Positions 30,142 through 64,000 of a DNA stretch of 64,000 nucleotides are shown one piece after another. Position 1 is the first letter of the stretch. Each line of letters starts with the position of its first letter. The stretch is taken from positions 45,994,284-46,058,283 of the forward strand of contig NC_091136.1 of assembly GCF_041381155.1 (NCBI RefSeq), given 5' to 3'. This stretch comes from Argopecten irradians (taxonomy: Eukaryota > Mollusca > Bivalvia > Pectinida > Pectinidae). The position numbers and the translations under genes were made by a program. The notes beneath the pieces were generated by a model, which did not search any database, was not told the origin of the DNA, and saw only the letters and a program-made list of their open reading frames with translations.

Positions 30142-31196
30142 CAGCTCACAGGTGTTCGTTTCTAATATAAGTATAAGTATAATACTGGGTCAAGGTCTAT
30201 AACTCGGTCAGCCATGTAACACTACCCAATTTCAGAAAAAGTATGATTATAAACAAACTGTATAAGATGTGACAATGGGAATACTTTCAACCGACAGCCA
30301 GATAACTTATCTTTAATTTGGTATATGATACAATATATATCATGCCGTATAAATGTCACTAGGTATCCAGAAACATCGGAAAACAGCCAGATTTCAACTG
30401 GTCGGACACTGTGGTGTCCTCCGATAAACACGCTAGGGCTCTAATGGGTAGTTCAAAAACCACTGCATGTCAACACTTCAGCTTCATAGGAATTAAAGTT
30501 TGGTAAAAAACAAACTTACCGGTATGTTAGTGTTTATCTATGTACCATCCATTTGCGCAATACAGCCTTTTGAAATTTCCGATTGAAAAAATGTGTGTCT
30601 CTCTAGCCGTCATGTTGATATGTGTGTAGTACATTTGTTTTCTCGGCGTTGATTGGTCAATTAATTTTCGAGAGCCAATCAACGCCGACAAAACAAATCT
30701 ATTGCACACATACTTACATGGCGGCTAGAGACATATTTTTTTTCAATCGGAAATTTCAAAGGGCTACGTGAGGCAAATGGATGGTATTTATCCAGGGATT
30801 TACTAACCGGTAAGTTTGTTTTCTACCAAACTTTCATTCTTATGACGCTGAAGTGTTGACATGCAGTGGTTTTTTGAGCTACCCATTAGAGCCCTGGCGT
30901 GTTCATCGGAGGACACCACATGTACAGTGTCCGACCAGTTGAAATCTGGCTGTTTTCCGATGTTTTTGGATACCTAGTGACATTTATACGGCATGATATA
31001 TATTTTGTTTCATATACCAAAATAAAGATAAATTATCTGGCTGTCGATTGAGAGTATTCCTATTATTATATCCTATACGGTTGGTTAATGATCATACTTT
31101 TTCAGAAATTGGGTAGTGTTATATGGCCGGCCGAGTTATAGACCTTGACCCAGTATTATACATATGCTTATATTAGAAACGAACACCTGTGGTCAG
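30142..31196. mobile_element. 1.05-kb foldback element with ~520-bp inverted arms
   Basis: The left arm 30142-30656 and right arm 30675-31196 are near reverse complements, meeting at GGCGTTGATTGG ... CCAATCAACGCC around an 18-bp centre. Outer ends read CAGCTCACAGGTGTTCG and CGAACACCTGTGGTCAGC. Arms differ by scattered substitutions and small indels. No coding capacity and no obvious target duplication were seen. It fits a foldback DNA transposon or a large palindromic MITE. Confidence 0.88.
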
Positions 31197-36474: not shown

Positions 36475-36754
36475 CAGATCTCTGTGGATGAGACAGGTTC
36501 TTTGGTCTTTTGATACACATTAAAATAATCGAATAATGGTATACTATGTGGCTTTGAAGTTGGGCGTCGCTGTCTCTGCAATCTTTGTCTTTGTAGGCTT
36601 GCGACTGATCAGTTGTTTCTCCTGAACTGCGCATGCCTTCAATTTTGTTATTAAATATTCCGAGGATGGATATAACGACAGTAATAGTAAGCCCTCAAGT
36701 ATCAAGGATGCAGAGGGACGGGATCTTTTTAGGTGTTTGCCAGTATTTTTTTTT
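36475..36754 (-). repeat. Copy A of a ~280-bp direct repeat related to RPTP exon 15 sequence
   Basis: Near-identical to 37208-37490 (one single-base indel plus T-run length). On the minus strand it resembles the RPTP linker region at 3.7-3.93 kb, sharing TATATCCA, the acceptor-like TTCAGGAG and CGCAAGCCTACAA. Confidence 0.8.
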
Positions 36755-37207
36755 CGATAATGAAAATTTATATTTGTGTCATTTTTGTGGTCTAATGTAT
36801 AATGATCTCATATTGCACAGTGTACTTGAATGTAGCCACACTGAGAACTTGCGAGACCAATTGTGGTGTATTATCAGTACTGTGAAAGATATAGATTTTG
36901 TTTTTTATCTCAATTCAATGTCAAAATATCATCTACTGCATGTTTTCTTCTTGGTGGACTATTTAACTATCATTTATCTCAAAATGAAATGGAAGACTTC
37001 AGACTAAATTCAATTATTATTGTTAACAAAAATGTTCGTACAAAGTGGTATCCATAACTGACCTTTTTTCTTTTCTTTTTATTTTTTTAGGCAAATATTT
37101 GATTGTATTAACTTCAACTGAAGTTATATGGCTTAATCTTGTGAACTCCAGAGTATTTGTATTATGTATGTTTTTGTGCTAGCCTTATATATAGACTTTT
37201 GATACGT
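36755..37207 (+). mobile_element. LINE 3' end between the two direct repeats
   Basis: The frame encodes YLCHFCGLMYNDLILHSVLE followed by C, the C-x2-C...H...C knuckle near the C terminus of many LINE RT proteins. After a frameshift near 36.95 kb it continues LLGGLFNYHLSQNEMEDFRL. A CT/T-rich 3' UTR follows. Only the last 100 or so codons remain. Confidence 0.6.
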
Positions 37208-50166: not shown

Positions 50167-50228
50167 GATCAGATTCCGCCAGTAAATCAAGTCCCCTATT
50201 TTTGTCTGCTTCCACTGAATATAGCCTA
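50167..50228 (+). promoter_or_regulatory. Splice acceptor and 5' UTR of the hydrolase-like gene
   Basis: TTTTTATTTTCAG ends at 50167 with a clear pyrimidine tract. The following 61 nt carry in-frame stops before the ATG at 50229, so this part is untranslated. It implies at least one upstream 5' UTR exon. Confidence 0.6.
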
Positions 50229-51734
50229 ATGGATATGAAGAAGGGATCCCCCGTCACCGTGGTTCTTGGGCTAGCTACGTTATTGTTTGGGACCGTCATT
50301 CTAATTGTGTTCTTCTGGGTTTCACAAAGAGCTATGCACCCGAGAACATTGTTCAGCATTCCAATAAGTGTGTCTTTTGACATCAAAGCAAACGAAGCAG
50401 ACGAAAATGGCCCAGGAAAAACCTACTTAAAAATCGAATGGAATCCGATAACAGCGAGAACGAATTTTCATCAGAGGGATGTGCTTTCCGCAGACAGTAG
50501 AATGGAGTCATTCGTCATTAAAGTGGACGATACGGAGGCTGTCGGGCTTTCCTTTATGAATACCACTCAAACATTTTGCACCGAGGACGATTCCTTGCCA
50601 GAATGGGTTGGTATTTTAAGACATGTTATGTTGGCAAACCAATGGCGTCAGGATACTGAAGCACACGAGTGTCAAGGAATCACGTGGAATACCAATCACA
50701 ATGGCAATCCCATTCAAATATGTATTTATGATGACCAACTAGATTACGTAACACATCTAAACAGTCGCGCCGAGGTAACTACTTGGACCAAGACGGATAA
50801 GCAAAATATCCGTATCATGTCAGATGTAATGAATGGTCCGTGCCAAAATGTCAGCCGGGTAAATAACATCACACCTAGTAAAGTTCGGAAAGTCAAAAGG
50901 GATTCTGGAGTTCCAGAAATCACGTGCGTGTTTGTTCATGGATCGGGTCAGGAAAATTCTTCTGACAACATGATAGTTCATTCAAATATGATGGGATATT
51001 GGGGAAATATACGAAATTATACTTCGAAGTGCTCCTCACATAAATTCCTTCAGCTCAACAGCATAGACCACGGCTGGGATGCGGACTCTCTTCACCAGCT
51101 GTTCTGTAGAGTTGCTGCCCCTAATGGAACCATAAGTGACACTATTATATTCACACATTCCATGGGGAACCTGTTGGTCGCGGCTGCGTTATACAGGAAT
51201 TATTGTACGTTCAATACAACCTCAAGTCGATGGTTTTCAGTGCAAGGTCCCTGGACGGGAACTGTCGTAGCCGACCTGATTTCAAATATCTGCACAAGTC
51301 CCTCATTGATTCAACAACCAGCACGGATTCTCTTTCGTATGCTAGGATGGTATTGTAAATCCTCTGAAGAGAGTGAGTTCGAATCCTACAAGACTCTGAA
51401 AACCAACTATATATCACCTACTGGCATTAGTTATGACAATCTGACAGAGGTCGGTCAGAATTACGTATCTGGAGTGATGTGTGGAACAAGCTTTTACGGA
51501 CAAGGAAGAAGCTACCAAGAAAGTCTCGCTTTTTCTTTTATAGAGTATTTCAGTTACCTTGAACATCCCAACGACGGCATGGTGTCTTTCACTTCCTGCA
51601 AACTAACGAATGTACCGTTCGGAAACAGAAGTGTCAATGCATATTACAAAGGCCCTTTCAATCACGCAGACGGCACGTGCAAAAATGGCGGGGATTCTTG
51701 TATGTGGTATCACAACATGCTTGAAAGGATTTGA
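50229..51734 (+). CDS. Type II membrane alpha/beta-hydrolase-like protein (501 aa, single coding exon)
   Basis: The ATG at 50229 (MDMKKGS) is followed by a hydrophobic segment at about residues 8-32 with no cleavage-like site, so this is a type II membrane anchor with a lumenal or extracellular body. That body has seven or more N-glycosylation sequons (such as NVS, NIT, NYT, NGT, NRS) and many cysteines. Hydrolase signs are VFVHGSG (residues 234-240, oxyanion-hole strand), THSMGN (309-314, nucleophile elbow with Ser311), HPNDGMVS (Asp449) and FNHADG (His479), an order that fits a Ser-Asp-His triad as in lipase/PGAP1-like enzymes. The substrate is unknown. An open frame starts upstream at a TTG (50202), but the first ATG is preferred. 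Stop TGA at 51732-51734. The whole reading frame is intact, so it is probably a functional gene. Confidence 0.85.
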   Translation: MDMKKGSPVTVVLGLATLLFGTVILIVFFWVSQRAMHPRTLFSIPISVSFDIKANEADENGPGKTYLKIEWNPITARTNFHQRDVLSADSRMESFVIKVDDTEAVGLSFMNTTQTFCTEDDSLPEWVGILRHVMLANQWRQDTEAHECQGITWNTNHNGNPIQICIYDDQLDYVTHLNSRAEVTTWTKTDKQNIRIMSDVMNGPCQNVSRVNNITPSKVRKVKRDSGVPEITCVFVHGSGQENSSDNMIVHSNMMGYWGNIRNYTSKCSSHKFLQLNSIDHGWDADSLHQLFCRVAAPNGTISDTIIFTHSMGNLLVAAALYRNYCTFNTTSSRWFSVQGPWTGTVVADLISNICTSPSLIQQPARILFRMLGWYCKSSEESEFESYKTLKTNYISPTGISYDNLTEVGQNYVSGVMCGTSFYGQGRSYQESLAFSFIEYFSYLEHPNDGMVSFTSCKLTNVPFGNRSVNAYYKGPFNHADGTCKNGGDSCMWYHNMLERI

Positions 51735-53362: not shown

Positions 53363-53632
53363 CATTGTAATATTCAAATTAAAAACGTATCGGAATATCT
53401 CTGACTAAACCGATCAAATTACACTGCAGGGGAAGTCACTCTAACCGCTCTCCACTAGGACGTTGCTTTCGATGTCACAAGTCAGAAAACGCCGGTAATT
53501 TTGGATTAAAATATTGCGTTCGACTATGTAGACATCGTTTATATACTTTTGCATGGTATGTGTGTGATTATGGATTATCGGACGACTGATTCGTGACTAT
53601 GACTCTTGGAAAAAAGGTAAACCATTATGAAA

Positions 53633-55434
53633 CAAGAGGCCCAGAGGGCCTGTATCGCTCACCTGGTTTGTAATGCCAAGTTATATTCTGAATACAAGTT
53701 CACTGTTTCTTTTCTGAAGGAATTTGAATATTTACCTCTGATTTCCCTATTGGGCCCCACTCTTACTGCTCCAGGGGATCAAAGCCAAAATTTATACGAA
53801 TTCTGTTAATCCCGAGGATGCCTCTGGCCAAATTTGGTTACCATCCATGCATAACTCTAGGACAAGTAGCGATTTTTCGGATTTACCTCTATTTCCCATA
53901 TTGGGCCCCGCCATCCGCGGTGGCCGAGTGGTTAAAATGTCCCGACATATTACCACAAGCCCTCCACCTCTGGGAAGCGGGTTCGAATCCCATGTGGGGC
54001 AGTTGCCAGGTACTGACCGCTGGTCGGTAGTTTTTCTCCGGGTACTCCGGCTTTCCTCCACCAACAAACCTGGCACGTCCTTACATGACCCTGGCTGTTA
54101 ATAGGACGTAAAAATAAACAAACCAAAAAATGCCCCCAGGGGGGTCAGAGCCAAAATTTATACAAGTTCTGTTTCCCTTCCCCAAAGGATGTTTGTGGCC
54201 AAATTTGGTTACAATCAATGCAGAACTCTAGGACAGGTAGCGATTTATAGGATTTACTTCTATTTTCCCTATTGGGCCCCGCCCCTTCTTCCCAAAGGGG
54301 GTCAGAGCCAAAATTTAAACTAGTTCTGTTCCCCTTCCCCCAAGGATGTTTCTTGCCAAATTTGGTTACAATCAATCCAGAACCCTTGGACAAGTAGCGA
54401 TTTATAGGATTTACTTCTATTTCCCCTATTGGGCCCCGCCCCTCCTTCCCCCAGGGGGTCAGAGTCAAAATTTATACATGTTCTGTTCCCCTTCCCCCAA
54501 GGATGTTTCTGGCCAAATTTGGTTACAATCCATCCAGAACTCTAGGACAAGTAGCGATTTATAGGATTTACCTTTATTTCCCCTATTGGGTCCCACCCCT
54601 CCTGCCCCTGGGTGGTCAGAGTCAAAATTTATACAAGTTCTGTTCCCCTTCCCCCAAGGATGTTTCTGGCCAAATTTGGTTGCAATCCATGCAGAACTCT
54701 AGGACAAGTAGCGATTTATAGGATTTACTTCTATTACCCCTATTGGGCCCCGCCCCTCCTGTCCCAGGGGAGGGGGTCAGGGTCACCATTTATGCAAAAT
54801 CTGATCCCCTTTCCTTAAGGAAGTTTATGACCAAATTGGTTGCAATCCATGCAGAACTCTAGGACAAGTAGCGATTTATAGGATTTACCTCTATTACCCC
54901 TATTGGGCCTGCCCCTCCTGCCCCATGGGGTCATGGTCACCATTTATGCAAAATCTGATCCCATTCCTTTAAGGAAGTTTCTGGCCAAATTTGGTTGCAA
55001 TCCATGCAGAACTCTAGAGCAAGTAGCGATTTATATGATTTACCTCTATTACCCCTATTGGGCCCCGCCCCTCCTGCCCCTGGGGGGTCAGGGTCACCAT
55101 TTATGCAAAATCTGATCCCCTTCCCCTAAGGAAGTTTCTGGCCAAATTTGGTTGCAATCCATGCAGAACTCTAGGAGAAGTAGCGATTTATAGGATTTAC
55201 CTCTATTACCCCTACTGGGCCCCGCCCCTCCTGCCCCAGGGGGGGGGGTGTCAGGGTCACCATTTATGCAAATTCTGATCCCTTTTCCCTAAAAAAGTTT
55301 CTGACCAAATTTTATTAAAATCCATGCAGTACTTTCTGAAAAGTAGCGATTTAAAGGAAATGTTGACGGACGGACGACGGACGCCGCGCCATAGCAATAG
55401 CTCACCGGCCCTTCGGGCAAGGTGAGCTAAACAT
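53633..55434 (+). mobile_element. 1.8-kb non-autonomous element with ~157-bp internal repeats (pearl/Helentron-like)
   Basis: It begins AAACAAGAGGCCCAGAGGGC. About nine units of about 157 bp follow (landmark TTCTGGCCAAATTTGGTT, e.g. 54505 and 54662). It ends with the hairpin GCTCACC-GGCCCTTCGGGC-AAGGTGAGC followed by TAAA. A 3' terminal hairpin and insertion next to T/A fit Helitron/Helentron relatives. A SINE is nested at 53.92 kb. Short frames inside (such as 'LAKFGYNP') are repeat shadows. Confidence 0.82.
53916..54128 (+). mobile_element. Family-2 SINE nested in the 1.8-kb element
   Basis: Plus-strand full copy: CCGCGGTGGCCGAGTGGTTA, B box GGGTTCGAATCCC, core CGGGTACTCCGGCTTTCC, end GGACGTAAAAATAAACAAAC. 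It splits a repeat unit between GGGCCCCGCC and CCCCCAGGGG. Confidence 0.92.
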
Positions 55435-59135: not shown

Positions 59136-59649
59136 AATTTAGAAAGTGCGTTAGAATAGATGTGGGTTTTTTTTATTCTTTTTCTTTTCTTTTTCTTTAA
59201 ATAATGTACAATCTCCACCAACAATACGTACTCTACCACTCCTGTCGGCAATAGTAAATACAAAAACCTGTAAATATGAGAGAATATTTTCAAGTAACCA
59301 GCAGGGTTATAGTGTCCGTATGATAGTTTTAGTGTCGCTATCAAGATGATGAGTTTCTATTTCCATGTTAATATACTTTTATCACATAATCCGCCTGATA
59401 TCCAGTGATTTCGGCAGTGTAATATTTTGCGTGTGTTACTATTATTAGTGTCCTTGCCACAACTTTAAAGTGTTTATGGGAAAATAAGTCGCTATGTCAC
59501 AGTCAACAACCGATCGAATTGATGTATTTATCAATTATGAGCTATATTAACCTACGATCTAGGTTAATATTTACAGGTAAACTCTGAGGCTGTGAAAAAT
59601 CAGTCACCGTGACGACTTATACAATACTACACCGTATATAGCCCTGGTA

Positions 59650-59730
59650 ACAGTATTTGATTGGTCAGTTCTGACGATGTCTCACGAGAGCTGTATCCCG
59701 AGAGAAGGATCCCGAGGGAATGGTTTAGAA
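59650..59730 (+). promoter_or_regulatory. Candidate 5' UTR exon of the gene at 60.2 kb
   Basis: A GA-rich segment (CCCGAGAGAAGGATCCCGAG) ends TTTAGAA before the strong donor GTAAGTATCC (exon end 59730). The matching acceptor is TTGTATTTTACAG at 60146. The transcription start is not visible. About 0.5 kb separates it from the divergent mitoregulin-like gene. Confidence 0.55.
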
Positions 59731-60146
59731 GTAAGTATCCATGTCGCTGGTTTACGCAGGTTTAATTATTCATATTTTATTATTGAAAGATTGACAAGTT
59801 TGTGCTAGGGTTTAGGTTTGGACCCAGACCTTTCTAGGATAAACGGTAAAACACCACTCTTTATGTAAGTATTACGTTCTGTTTTAACGCGGTTTATATT
59901 ATACTGTTGTACTGTTCGTTTGGCTTATTTATTTCATCCGGCATGATTCGTATAAGTCAGCAAGTATCTTATAACTCATGTTTATATGCTGCGATCCCTT
60001 CTACATATAAAATGCTACAATTCTTATAGTGATTTGTATTCTATTACTTCATTTTTATATTGGTAGATTTTAGCTGTATACCCAGTAAATATTACTTTAA
60101 CTGCACTATTGTTTTACTTCAATAAATCGTTCCTTGTATTTTACAG

Positions 60147-60283
60147 GTTGATTTGACAGTCTTGCTCCATTTAGAATAAAAATGTAAATAGGAAAAGTTC
60201 AACATATGACGTCATGGCTAAAATAGCAATAACATGGATTTTTACAGGAATCGTGTTTATCTATGGTGTTTTCATCATTAAAG
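60147..60283 (+). CDS. Signal-peptide exon of an unidentified gene (coding from 60214)
   Basis: The exon runs from acceptor TTTTACAG to donor AAAG|GTACGT. Two upstream ATGs close at once. ATG 60214 opens 23 codons with a strongly hydrophobic core (ITWIFTGIVFIYGVFII), a signal peptide or signal anchor, ending in phase 1. A phase-1 exit after a signal peptide is what the RPTP gene at 27.8 kb also has, so another modular extracellular receptor is plausible. No later exon is identified inside the window. The last 45 or so nt and the donor are the seed of the following array. Confidence 0.65.
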
Positions 60284-62990
60284 GTACGTAAGGATTACAC
60301 AGGACTCGTGTTTATCTGTAGTGTTCTCATTATTAAAGGTAAGTACGGATTATACAGGACTCGTATTTATCTGTAGTGTTCTCATCATTAAAGGTAAGTA
60401 CGGCTTATACAGGACTCGTGTTTATCTGTAGTGTTCTCATCATTAAAGGTACGTAAGGAGTGTTCTCATCGTTAAAGGTACTTAAGGATTATACTGGACT
60501 CGTGTTTATCTGTAGTGTTCTCATCATTAAAGGATTATATAGGACTCGTGTTTATCTGTAGTGTTCTCATCATTAAAGGTAAGTAAGGATTACACAGGAC
60601 TCGTGTTTATCTGTAGTGTTCTCATTATTAAAGGTAAGTAAGGATTATACTGGACTCGTGTTTATCTGTAGTGTTCTCATCATTAAAGGTACGTAAGGAT
60701 TATACAGTACTCGTGTTTATCTGAAGTGTTCTCATTATTAAATGTAAGTACGGATTATACAGGACTCGTGTTTATCTGTAGTGTTCTCATTATTAAAGGT
60801 ACGTAAGGATTACACAGGACTCGTGTTTATCTGTAGTGTTCTCATTATTAAAGGTACGTAAGGATTACACAGGACTCGTGTTTATCTGCAGTGTTCTCAT
60901 TATTAAAGGTACGTAAGGATCACACAGGACTCGTGTTTATCTGTAGTGTTCTCATCATTAAAGGTAAGTACGGATTACACAGGACTCGTGTTTATCTGTA
61001 GTGTTCTCATCATTAAAGGTAAGTACGGATTACACAGGACTCGTGTTTATCTGTAGTGTTCTCATCATTAAAGGTAAGTAAGGATTACACAGGACTCGTG
61101 TTTATCTGTAGTGTTCTCACAATTAAAGGTACGTAAGGATTATACAGGACTCGTGTTTATCTGTAATGTTCTCATTATTAAAGGTAAGTACAAATTATAC
61201 AGGACTCGTGTTTATCTGTAGTGTTCTCATTATTAAAGGTACGTAAGGATTATACAGGACTCGTGTTTATCTGTAGTGTTCTCATTATTAAAGGTAAGTA
61301 CGGATTATACAGGACTCGTGTTTATCTGTAGTGTTCTCATTATTAAAGGTAAGTAAGGATTACACAGGACTCGTGTTTATCTGTAGTGTTTCTCATTATT
61401 AAAGGATTATACAGGACTCGTGTTTATCTGTAGTGTTCTCATCATTAAAGGTAAGTAAGGATTATACATGTACAGTACAGACCGTGTTTATCTGTAGTGT
61501 TCTCATCATTAAAGGTAAGTAAGGATTACACAGGACTCGTGTTTATCTGTAGTGTTCTCATCATTAAAGGTAAGTACGGCTTATACAGGACTCGTGTTTA
61601 TCTGCAGTGTTCTCATTATTAAAGGTACGTAAGGATTATACAGGACTAGTGTTTATCTGTAGTGTTCTCATTATTAAAGGTACGTAAGGATTACACAGGA
61701 CTCGTGTTTATCTGTAGTGTTCTCATTATTAAAGGTACGTAAGGATTACACAGGACTCGTGTTTATCTGTAGTGTTCTCATCATTAAAGGATTATACAGG
61801 ACTCGTGTTTATCTGTAGCGTTCTCATCATTAAAGGATTACACAGGACTCGTGTTTATCTGCAGTGTTCTCATTATTAAAGGTACGTAAGGATTATACTG
61901 GACTCGTGTTTATCTGTAGTGTTCTCATCATTAAAGGTACGTAAGGATTACACAGGACTCGTGTTTATCTGTAGTGTTCTCATCATTAAAGGTAATCACG
62001 GATTACACAGGACTCGTGTTTATCTGAAGTGTTCTCATCATTAAAGGTAAGTAAGGATTACACAGGACTCGTGTTTATCTGTAGTGTTCTCATTATTAAA
62101 GGTACGTAAGGATTATACAGGACTCGTGTTTATCTGTAGTGTTCTCATTATTAAAGGTAAGTACAGATTATACAGGACTCGTGTTTATCTGTAGTGTTCT
62201 CATCATTAAAGGATTATACAGGACTCGTGTTTATCTGTAGTGTTCTCATTATCAAAGGTAAGTAAGAATTACACAGGACTCGTGTTTATCTGTAGTGTTC
62301 TCATTATTAAAGGTAAGTACGGATTATACAGGACTCGTGTTTATCTGTAGTGTTTTCATTATTAAAGGTAAGTAAGGATTACACAGGACTCGTGTTTATC
62401 TGTAGTGTTCTCATTATTAAAGGATTATACAGGACTCGTGTTTATCTGTAGTGTTCTCATTATTAAAGGTAAGTACGGATTATACAGGACTCGTGTTTAT
62501 CTGTAGTGTTCTCATCATTAAAGGTAAGTAAAGATTACACAGGACTCGTGTTTATCTGTAGTGTTCTCATTATTAAAGGTAAGTAAGGATTATAGAGGAC
62601 TCGTGTTTATCTGTAGTGTTCTCATCATTAAAGGTAAGTAAGGATTACACAGGACTCGTGTTTATCTGCAGTGTTCTCATTATTAAAGGTAGTAAGGTAT
62701 TATACAGATTACTCGTGTTTATCTGTAGTGTTCTCATCATTAAAGGTAAGTAAGGATTACACAGGACTCGTGTTTATCTGTAGTGTTCTCATCATTAAAG
62801 GTAAGTAAGGATTATACAGGACTCGTGTTTATCTGTAGTGTTCTCATCATTAAAGGTAAGTACGGATTATACAGGACTCGTGTTTATCTGTAGTGTTCTC
62901 ATCATTAAAGGTAAGTACGGATTATACATGTATAGTACTCGTGTTTATCTGTAGTGTTCTCATTATTAATGGTATGTACGGATTATCTAG
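60236..62990 (+). repeat. 55-bp tandem array (~50 copies) of an exon end with its 5' splice site
   Basis: Each unit reads ACAGGACTCGTGTTTATCTG, TAGTGTTCTCATCATTAAAG, then GTAAGTAAGGATT (period exactly 55 between well-aligned copies, e.g. starts at 60301, 60356, 60411). The sequence is the end of the signal-peptide exon plus donor and the first intron bases. In the exon frame every unit encodes TGLVFICSVLIIK, and common variants (CATTATT/CATCATT, TGTAGT/TGCAGT) are synonymous. Most units keep a near-consensus donor (GTAAGT or GTACGT). Six units lack it through the same 9-bp loss. Confidence 0.95.
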
Positions 62991-63019
62991 ATACCTTATA
63001 TGCTATTGTTGTTCCCCCT

Positions 63020-63395
63020 TAATTTCCCTTAAAACAGAAACGTCCTTGGGGGAAGGGGAACGGAGTTTATATCCATTTTGGCTCTGACGCCCCGTGGGCA
63101 GGAGGGGCGGGGCCCAAGAGGGGAAATAGAGGTAAATCCTTTAAATCGCTACTAGTCATAGAGCTCTGCATGGGTTGTAACCAAATTTGGCACAGAAAAA
63201 CCTCGGGGAAGGGTAAAATCTTTTAAATATTTTTTTGCTTTGACCCCATGGAGCAGAAAGAGTGAGGCCCAATAGGGGAATTAGAAGTAAATATTCAAGT
63301 TCCTTCGGAAAAGAAACAATGAATCTGTATTCAGAACATTACCTGGCATTGCAAAACAGATGAGCGATACAGACCCCCTGGGCCTCTTGTTATGC
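63020..63395 (-). mobile_element. Truncated copy of the 157-bp-repeat element
   Basis: Minus strand: begins AACAAGAGGCCCAGGGGGTC, then GTATCGCTCATCTG, and about one and a half core units (AACCAAATTTGG, GGGGCGGGGCCC on the plus strand). It lacks the 3' hairpin and abuts the 55-bp array. Confidence 0.8.
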
Positions 63396-63744
63396 TTCGT
63401 ATTCGTCATAAAAATACATATATATTGTTAAAAAGACATGTTATGTACAGAATCAATAAGCATTAAAAATACCGTGGTATATGAACAAAAAAGTATGAAT
63501 CTACGAATTTCCGTAAGAAACGGGGATTTTGAATCTGTAATTATCCAGCTAACATACGTAGATGTTCAGGTAGTTCGTGCACAAGAAAAATGACAATTGA
63601 TTTGTCTATTGTATAGACTTTTATTATACAAACTAAAAGGACAAGAAAAATCATTACCACATAGAAATACAATTTATACAACATTCCCTTTTAATGATAG
63701 TACAATTATTTGAAAATTTATGTTTTGACATACCTTCCTCAATT
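63396..63744. other. Nothing recognised
   Basis: AT-rich sequence without an exon or repeat that I could support. Confidence 0.4.
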
Positions 63745-63885
63745 GTTCAGAAGTTACTATCACTGTTACAATACACTATCCAGGCCTTCCTAAGAAGGTT
63801 AGAGAGAAGTGTACCGTTAATAGATCGTTTTGATGCACATCACAAGACTAAACTACCTGTTTCATTTGTTGTTGTGCACAGAGTC
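63745..63885 (+). pseudogene. RPTP-linker-related fragment, plus-strand copy
   Basis: CAGAAGTTACTATCACTGTT, and further on GGTTAGAGAGAAGTGTACCG, followed by GTTGTTGTGCACAGAGTC, match the 57.1-57.4-kb fragment in opposite orientation, with an internal deletion. It marks a further copy of sequence related to RPTP exon 15. Confidence 0.5.
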
Positions 63886-64000
63886 AAGGATTTGTTGTCA
63901 ATCACAAAAGAACATCTAATGTTTTATTACTTCTGTTTAAGCATCCTCGTCGAGTTCAAAAGATTCTTCCATCTATTCATTCCCACCAACAGCAATGAGT

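Follow-up and report, generated by a model that had tools for sequence, protein, structure and literature searches.

Why should the end of an exon, together with its splice donor, recur some fifty times in a row inside the intron that follows it? The question is raised by a 55-bp tandem array at positions 60236–62990 of a 64,000-nucleotide stretch of Argopecten irradians DNA (the window; RefSeq assembly GCF_041381155.1, contig NC_091136.1, forward-strand positions 45,994,284–46,058,283). A sequence-only reading had described about 50 donors grown from a signal-peptide exon, and had proposed a U1 sink, donor choice or recursive splicing, cassette micro-exons or neutral satellite growth. The interpretation we favor, with a probability of roughly three in four, is that the 5′ splice site of intron 2 gave rise to a minisatellite, one of a class of donor-seeded arrays that recurs in this genome.

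An array that begins inside an exon

The exon, its donor and the array are arranged as follows (a slash marks the splice junction here and below):

60147–60283, + strand: exon 2 (signal-peptide exon), with the good acceptor ttttacag, 5′ untranslated region (UTR), ATG at 60214, the peptide MAKIAITWIFTGIVFIYGVFIIK and a phase 1 end
60284–60289, + strand: the gene's own donor, AAAG/GTACGT, with an in-frame TAA directly after it
60236–60291, + strand: unit 1, the founder, comprising exon tail and donor and starting at GGATT (from the sequence and the unit table)
60292–62990, + strand: copies 2 onward, mostly 55 bp, with six of 46–47 bp lacking a donor and one truncated (60459–60477)

Split on its core, the array yields 50 alignable units and one truncated unit, the latter read directly from the sequence. 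Tandem Repeats Finder delimits it at 60243–62986 with a period of 55, 50.0 copies and 87% matches, confirming the copy number first proposed. Its head-to-tail units fall within the minisatellite range of roughly 10–100 bp, and the array far exceeds chance expectation. Each unit consists of exon tail, donor and intron head, as had been read from the letters: unit 1 is the exon itself, its 3′ end and donor forming the first unit, and the same anatomy is found in other arrays. Homology starts at GGATT within the exon (60236), and GGATT recurs at 60292, the ninth intron base; the pair may possibly represent the founding microhomology. Querying the genome's own DNA with 60148–60300 returned 48 matches among the best candidates, all within C3:46054431–46057210. 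A protein search of the same genome for an exon paralogue or a pre-array copy (E up to 10) recovered only this locus's two exons.

The 50 units carry GTAAGT in 27 cases, GTACGT in 14 and another GT word in 3, and the donor is absent from 6 as a result of a 9-nt deletion. The earlier statement that most copies keep AAAG/GTAAGT thus needs correcting: about half retain the exact GTAAGT, and 41 of 50 have either GTAAGT or GTACGT. Long arrays are known to assemble poorly, and a near-identical 4.9-kb duplicate downstream could itself be an assembly duplicate, so we considered an artefact. Against this, variants differ among units, mean unit identity stays at 0.856–0.879 over lags 1–19 with no periodicity in unit similarity at these lags, and other genes show the same anatomy; an artefact is therefore very improbable.

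The proposed gene continues on both sides of exon 2:

59635–59672, + strand: candidate core promoter, TATATAG at 59635 and initiator-like TCAGTTCT at 59665 (read from the sequence)
59667–59730, + strand: proposed non-coding exon 1 with a putative start and the donor GAA/GTAAGTAT, its GT at 59731
60284–63941, + strand: proposed intron 2 of 3658 nt, 2707 nt of it within the array, with acceptor ttattacttctgtttaag
63942–64000, + strand: exon 3, opening after a good acceptor in phase 1 like the end of exon 2, reading ASSSSSKDSS... and rich in Ser/Thr; it continues past the window into 27-bp coding repeats

The A of the initiator-like site (59667) lies 32 nt past the first T of the TATA-like element. 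The exon 1 donor matches the U1 complement at 9 of 11 positions (−7.5 kcal/mol). Joined across intron 2, exons 2 and 3 are predicted to give a frame open for 1280 residues, with the first stop at 67712 (extended window coordinates, which run beyond the window and apply to the next positions as well). A 27-bp repeat reading TTTTDDNVH spans 65276–93199 (~28 kb) in the same gene; its frame is broken repeatedly, which may point to mis-assembly of, or damage to, this part of the gene. Farther downstream, at about 94–95 kb, Pfam identifies a SUEL_Lectin domain (1.3e-11) and a PAN_1 domain (1.6e-6). The host is thus plausibly a secreted mucin-lectin gene, predicted to extend over ~30 kb. The SUEL-lectin/PAN exons occur twice, at 93201–98065 and 121453–126274, 98.4% identical and 28.25 kb apart, possibly through a recent segmental duplication or an assembly duplicate.

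On the interpretation we favor, the founding tandem duplication, probably from GGATT (60236) to GGATT (60292), would have copied the exon tail, the donor and the head of the intron. Slippage or unequal exchange would then have raised the number to ~50 copies, all inside the intron. Splicing probably joins the 60284 donor to the 63941 acceptor in the mature mRNA, which would remove the array and leave the protein unchanged, with the later donors acting as decoys that add a stop.

Predicted consequences of the array for splicing

The copies are not inferior donors. The gene's own GTACGT forms a U1 duplex of −8.0 kcal/mol, and 26 of the 45 scored array donors are stronger, at −12.0 to −12.2 kcal/mol; among 3620 other GT sites of the window, 1% attain −8.0 kcal/mol. 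What distinguishes the first donor is the frame. From exon into intron it runs AAA GGT ACG TAA, so any later donor would retain the in-frame TAA and impose an immediate stop. By this reading of the frame, the protein would be obtained from the first donor only.

A different outcome would follow if the 36-nt stretch between the acceptor-like TACAG and the donor were a cassette micro-exon, each copy adding 12 hydrophobic residues (GLVFICSVLIIK). These stretches are 36 nt long and phase 1 at both ends, and in 47 of the 50 units they read through in the exon frame; the early statement that each one is open thus holds apart from units 9 and 33, which contain TGA, and unit 21, which has an insertion. 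Also in favor of micro-exons, the exon-derived part is less variable and shows a modest excess of synonymous variants. The splicing signals do not. The TACAG with which a unit's putative micro-exon begins is part of the coding sequence in the founder, and the pyrimidines preceding it are fewer in the array (ATTACACAG or ATTATACAG) than in the exon (TTTTTACAG), leaving no pyrimidine tract. Only 19 nt separate a donor from the "acceptor" of the next unit. Animal introns have a minimum length above this, so neighboring units lie too close together to be spliced as introns of usual animal size, and no workable intron would be formed. Two units carry stops, one an insertion, and six have lost the donor. 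Leaving aside polymorphic site 29, the exon departs from the array consensus at four places, each a non-synonymous change. In other arrays of the class (see below), the distance between the first two donors is indivisible by 3 in 12 of 16 cases, or 13 of 17 with the window array, close to the two-thirds expected without frame selection. The micro-exon appearance noted at first therefore did not hold up, and we regard such exons as highly unlikely.

Alternatively, the donors might serve as a platform for the U1 small nuclear ribonucleoprotein (snRNP) near the promoter of a very long gene, recruiting U1, raising transcription and blocking early polyadenylation (telescripting). The donor word is kept in the 41 units counted above, the gene is apparently ~30 kb long, and donor-bearing arrays are in excess genome-wide. 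ATTAAA is a variant poly(A) signal, and 47 such words directly before the donor would pair a signal with each U1 site. Yet copying alone accounts for the donor copies and six units have none, while the GTAAGT stretch varies by 7.4% and the exon-derived part by 2.6%, so the presumed U1 site is no less variable. From sequence features of this kind, a U1 platform appears unlikely. As an observation in its own right, 60284–62990 contains no AATAAA besides its 47 ATTAAA words, and in the consensus unit ATTAAA directly precedes the donor.

Intron gain by tandem duplication (the Rogers model), in which an exon stretch bearing AGGT is multiplied and the copies become intron, likewise predicts AG/GT in the repeats, as is seen in most units. 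Cases are reported for fission yeast, with introns that span several 24-bp repeat copies bearing AGGT (PMC4974935), and for Drosophila, where five novel intron positions were ascribed to tandem duplication (PMC2891723). Two features of the window locus, on which we judged this model (the arrays described below were read at their 5′ ends), argue against it. The sequence past the donor contains the in-frame TAA. The 63941 acceptor of the proposed intron is separated from the array's end by 951 nt, sits in unrelated sequence and has a pyrimidine tract of its own; under the proposed gene model, the two splice sites do not both derive from unit copies. Intron creation by this route is accordingly improbable.

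Donor-bearing arrays across the genome

We searched the genome for words repeated three times at a fixed period, using reversed words as the only controls and counting distinct arrays among the first 100 places listed, because long arrays inflate match totals. At a period of 54–56 bp, the donor word AGGTAAGT gave 428+355 triples (783) and its reversal 16+20 (36). As single words, the one comparison of this kind, the two are nearly equally frequent: 26342+26221 (52,563) against 22655+22807 (45,462), a 1.16-fold difference. In distinct arrays, C1 up to 66.7 Mb contained 7 for the donor among the matches listed and 1 for the control. With all 36 places listed, the control had 7 distinct arrays genome-wide, and under that rate 7 arrays in the surveyed part of C1 have a Poisson p of 1.9e-6. 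A second donor word, AGGTGAGT, gave 323+130 triples (453) against 2+2 (4), with 13 distinct arrays among the matches listed (C1–C7), and CAGGTAAGTAT gave 627+69 against 1+0, with 3 distinct arrays among the matches listed. Donor-bearing arrays thus outnumber reversed-word arrays. Extrapolating 7 arrays in 66.7 Mb, for one word and one narrow period, gives ~90 in 846 Mb.

We then sought the 5′ edges of 25 further distinct arrays, all those among the matches listed for the three donor words; they come first in contig order and are not a random sample. The edge lay outside the retrieved piece in five (L056, L058, L059, L060 and L063), leaving 20 readable. By eye, a coding exon end with acceptor, open frame and donor appears to start the array in 16 of the 20 (L030, L051, L052, L053, L055, L061, L062, L064, L065 and L067–L073; the L073 stretch includes 5′ UTR). 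For seven of these 16 exons a named protein or domain could be identified in the databases: AHR (1.6e-7), TBC1D15/17 (9.9e-7), adenosine kinase (3.2e-9), BLVRA (8.5e-4), NMD3 (1.6e-6), a SNF2-type SNF2-rel_dom (1.9e-10) and the Med14 RM of MED14 (4.3e-4, slightly under the family's curated cut-off). The firm figure is therefore 7 of 20 edges, and 16 of 20 is a softer judgement by eye, the other nine being putative exon ends.

Other searches at these edges were negative or weak. PDB gave no match at 0.01 for L055, L062, L071 or L070, although by eye the first three resemble a glucose transporter, isocitrate dehydrogenase and UTP20, respectively. Pfam at 0.1 returned nothing for L030, L052, L055, L062, L067, L068, L069, L071, L072, L073 and one of two frames of L070; below curated cut-offs it gave weak PAS for L051, weak PfkB for L065 and weak NMD3 for L053, and for L064 an unrelated family at 0.027. 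An open-frame comparison (15/15 against 4.6 expected) is biased, the exon starts having been chosen with an eye to open frames, and is not used as evidence. On the reverse strand, L066 and L069 resemble each other in a short element centered on GCCTTCAGTTTTACTATG that lies close to a donor array. For the control word, three small pieces from two arrays were read, and both C8 pieces lack a clear exon by eye. The control piece L077 (C5:36212600–36212850) shows by eye a short P450-like motif in another frame, with no Pfam match, and a coding origin of its array may apply.

Could the excess reflect a few large satellites, or an effect of the control word, instead of a splice-site process? Long arrays do inflate match counts (for example C1:2890660–2897138), reversed words are the sole controls, and the automatic exon test described below is weak. 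Such an origin is nonetheless rather unlikely, given the count of distinct arrays in the same 66.7 Mb (7 among the matches listed, against 1), the 453 against 4 triples of the second donor word, and the seven edges at database-confirmed exons.

Several observations weigh against our interpretation or limit its reach. The gene model is itself a reading of the sequence. Within the exon-derived part, 7 of 12 variant types are synonymous, above expectation (p 0.007–0.026 depending on the assumed transition bias, and 0.05–0.13 once the four founder changes are included), and variation is 2.6% there against 9.2% (43 units); together these may be a weak hint of coding constraint. Genome-wide, the reversed word is the only type of control and single-word frequency is available for AGGTAAGT alone. 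At a period of 40–70 bp, AGGTAAGT triples number 5027+4636 against 456+497, yet in distinct arrays among the matches listed the control has 12 (C1 to 64.7 Mb) and the donor 2 in 2.9 Mb (plus strand), so that excess is smaller than match counts imply, or unclear. The acceptor word TTTTACAG is also enriched, with 257+149 triples (406) about twice the reversed control (153+37; 190). Its 11 distinct arrays among 100 places listed (C1–C4 and the start of C5) have a density like that of AGGTGAGT, and we accordingly make no claim that acceptors are spared. At the edges, no exon was seen by eye in 4 of 20 (L027, L057, L066 and L074). An automatic test, requiring an acceptor-like AG with at least 8 of 12 pyrimidines and an open frame 60–450 nt before the donor, accepted 16 of 20 edges and 8 of 16 background AGGTRAG sites; requiring 9 pyrimidines gave 10/20 against 4/16, and 10 pyrimidines 3/20 against 1/16. 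The test separates edges poorly, which leaves the by-eye calls without a database match soft, and some of the background sites may themselves be real donors.

The last of these points concerns the cause. Exon and first donor remain intact and the extra copies are hidden in the intron, which would explain why such arrays survive. Near-neutral satellite growth fits best among the options first proposed, but plain neutrality or tolerance does not explain the excess over a control word of near-equal frequency. To account for it, one would have to invoke either a bias of mutation toward donors or some benefit of having spare ones. More speculatively, 5′ splice sites might be birth hot spots for minisatellites through a process linked to transcription or splicing, with possibly hundreds of introns starting with arrays of U1 sites that serve as reserve donors or U1 platforms and keep supplying new donors, micro-exons and introns. 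We consider this broader proposal possible but doubtful.

Other features and comparison with known systems

Elsewhere in the window, a 157-bp tandem repeat family occupies 53631–55358 and 63106–63391, the latter an inverted relative just past the donor array, and a 1-kb region at 30147–31191 matches its own reverse complement at 86%. An intronless open reading frame (ORF) of 510 residues at 50202–51734 has a hydrophobic stretch near its start and no Pfam match at 0.01; at the same threshold Pfam gave nothing for a 124-residue ORF at 36633–37007 or for a third downstream peptide. No RNA family reached its gathering score and no tRNA was found in a bacterial-mode scan.

If our interpretation is correct, donor-seeded arrays are a little-considered mutational source of intron growth and new splice sites. 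They also bring two questions within reach of testing: what lets the spliceosome choose the first donor when dozens of others are as strong or stronger, and whether donor arrays arise more often or are merely better tolerated. Searches of open-licence papers brought up, among the matches listed, no account of a class of this kind; accounts may exist elsewhere.

Minisatellites and variable-number tandem repeats (VNTRs) grow by slippage or unequal exchange. The window array resembles them in being a tandem repeat whose units measure tens of bases and agree at about 87%, and differs in starting at a 5′ splice site, in carrying a donor in most units and in recurring across the genome. Recursive splice sites (ratchet points) combine a pyrimidine tract with CAG/GTAAGT and are used stepwise. 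The donor-keeping units share AG/GT with them, many as AG/GTAAGT; unlike ratchet points, the window array has a weak upstream pyrimidine stretch and its AG is AAAG. Two further donor arrays, C3:11849738–11851047 and C1:64349285–64350356, come closer to ratchet points, each unit having a pyrimidine-rich stretch, AG and GTAAGT with no exon between.

Tandem repeats are stated to make up 21.7% of one scallop genome (PMC10225492). A likeness in position is found in earthworm metallothionein genes, where minisatellites occur in intron 1 (PMC12783039). They too form large arrays of minisatellite size in a first intron, and the accessible portion of that report contains no statement of an exon-end origin or of a donor in the unit. 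Intron gain by tandem duplication shares with the window array the tandem copies bearing AG/GT at an exon. In the scallop gene, by contrast, it is the 5′ end of an intron that has been multiplied, to about 50 copies, and the acceptor is separate.
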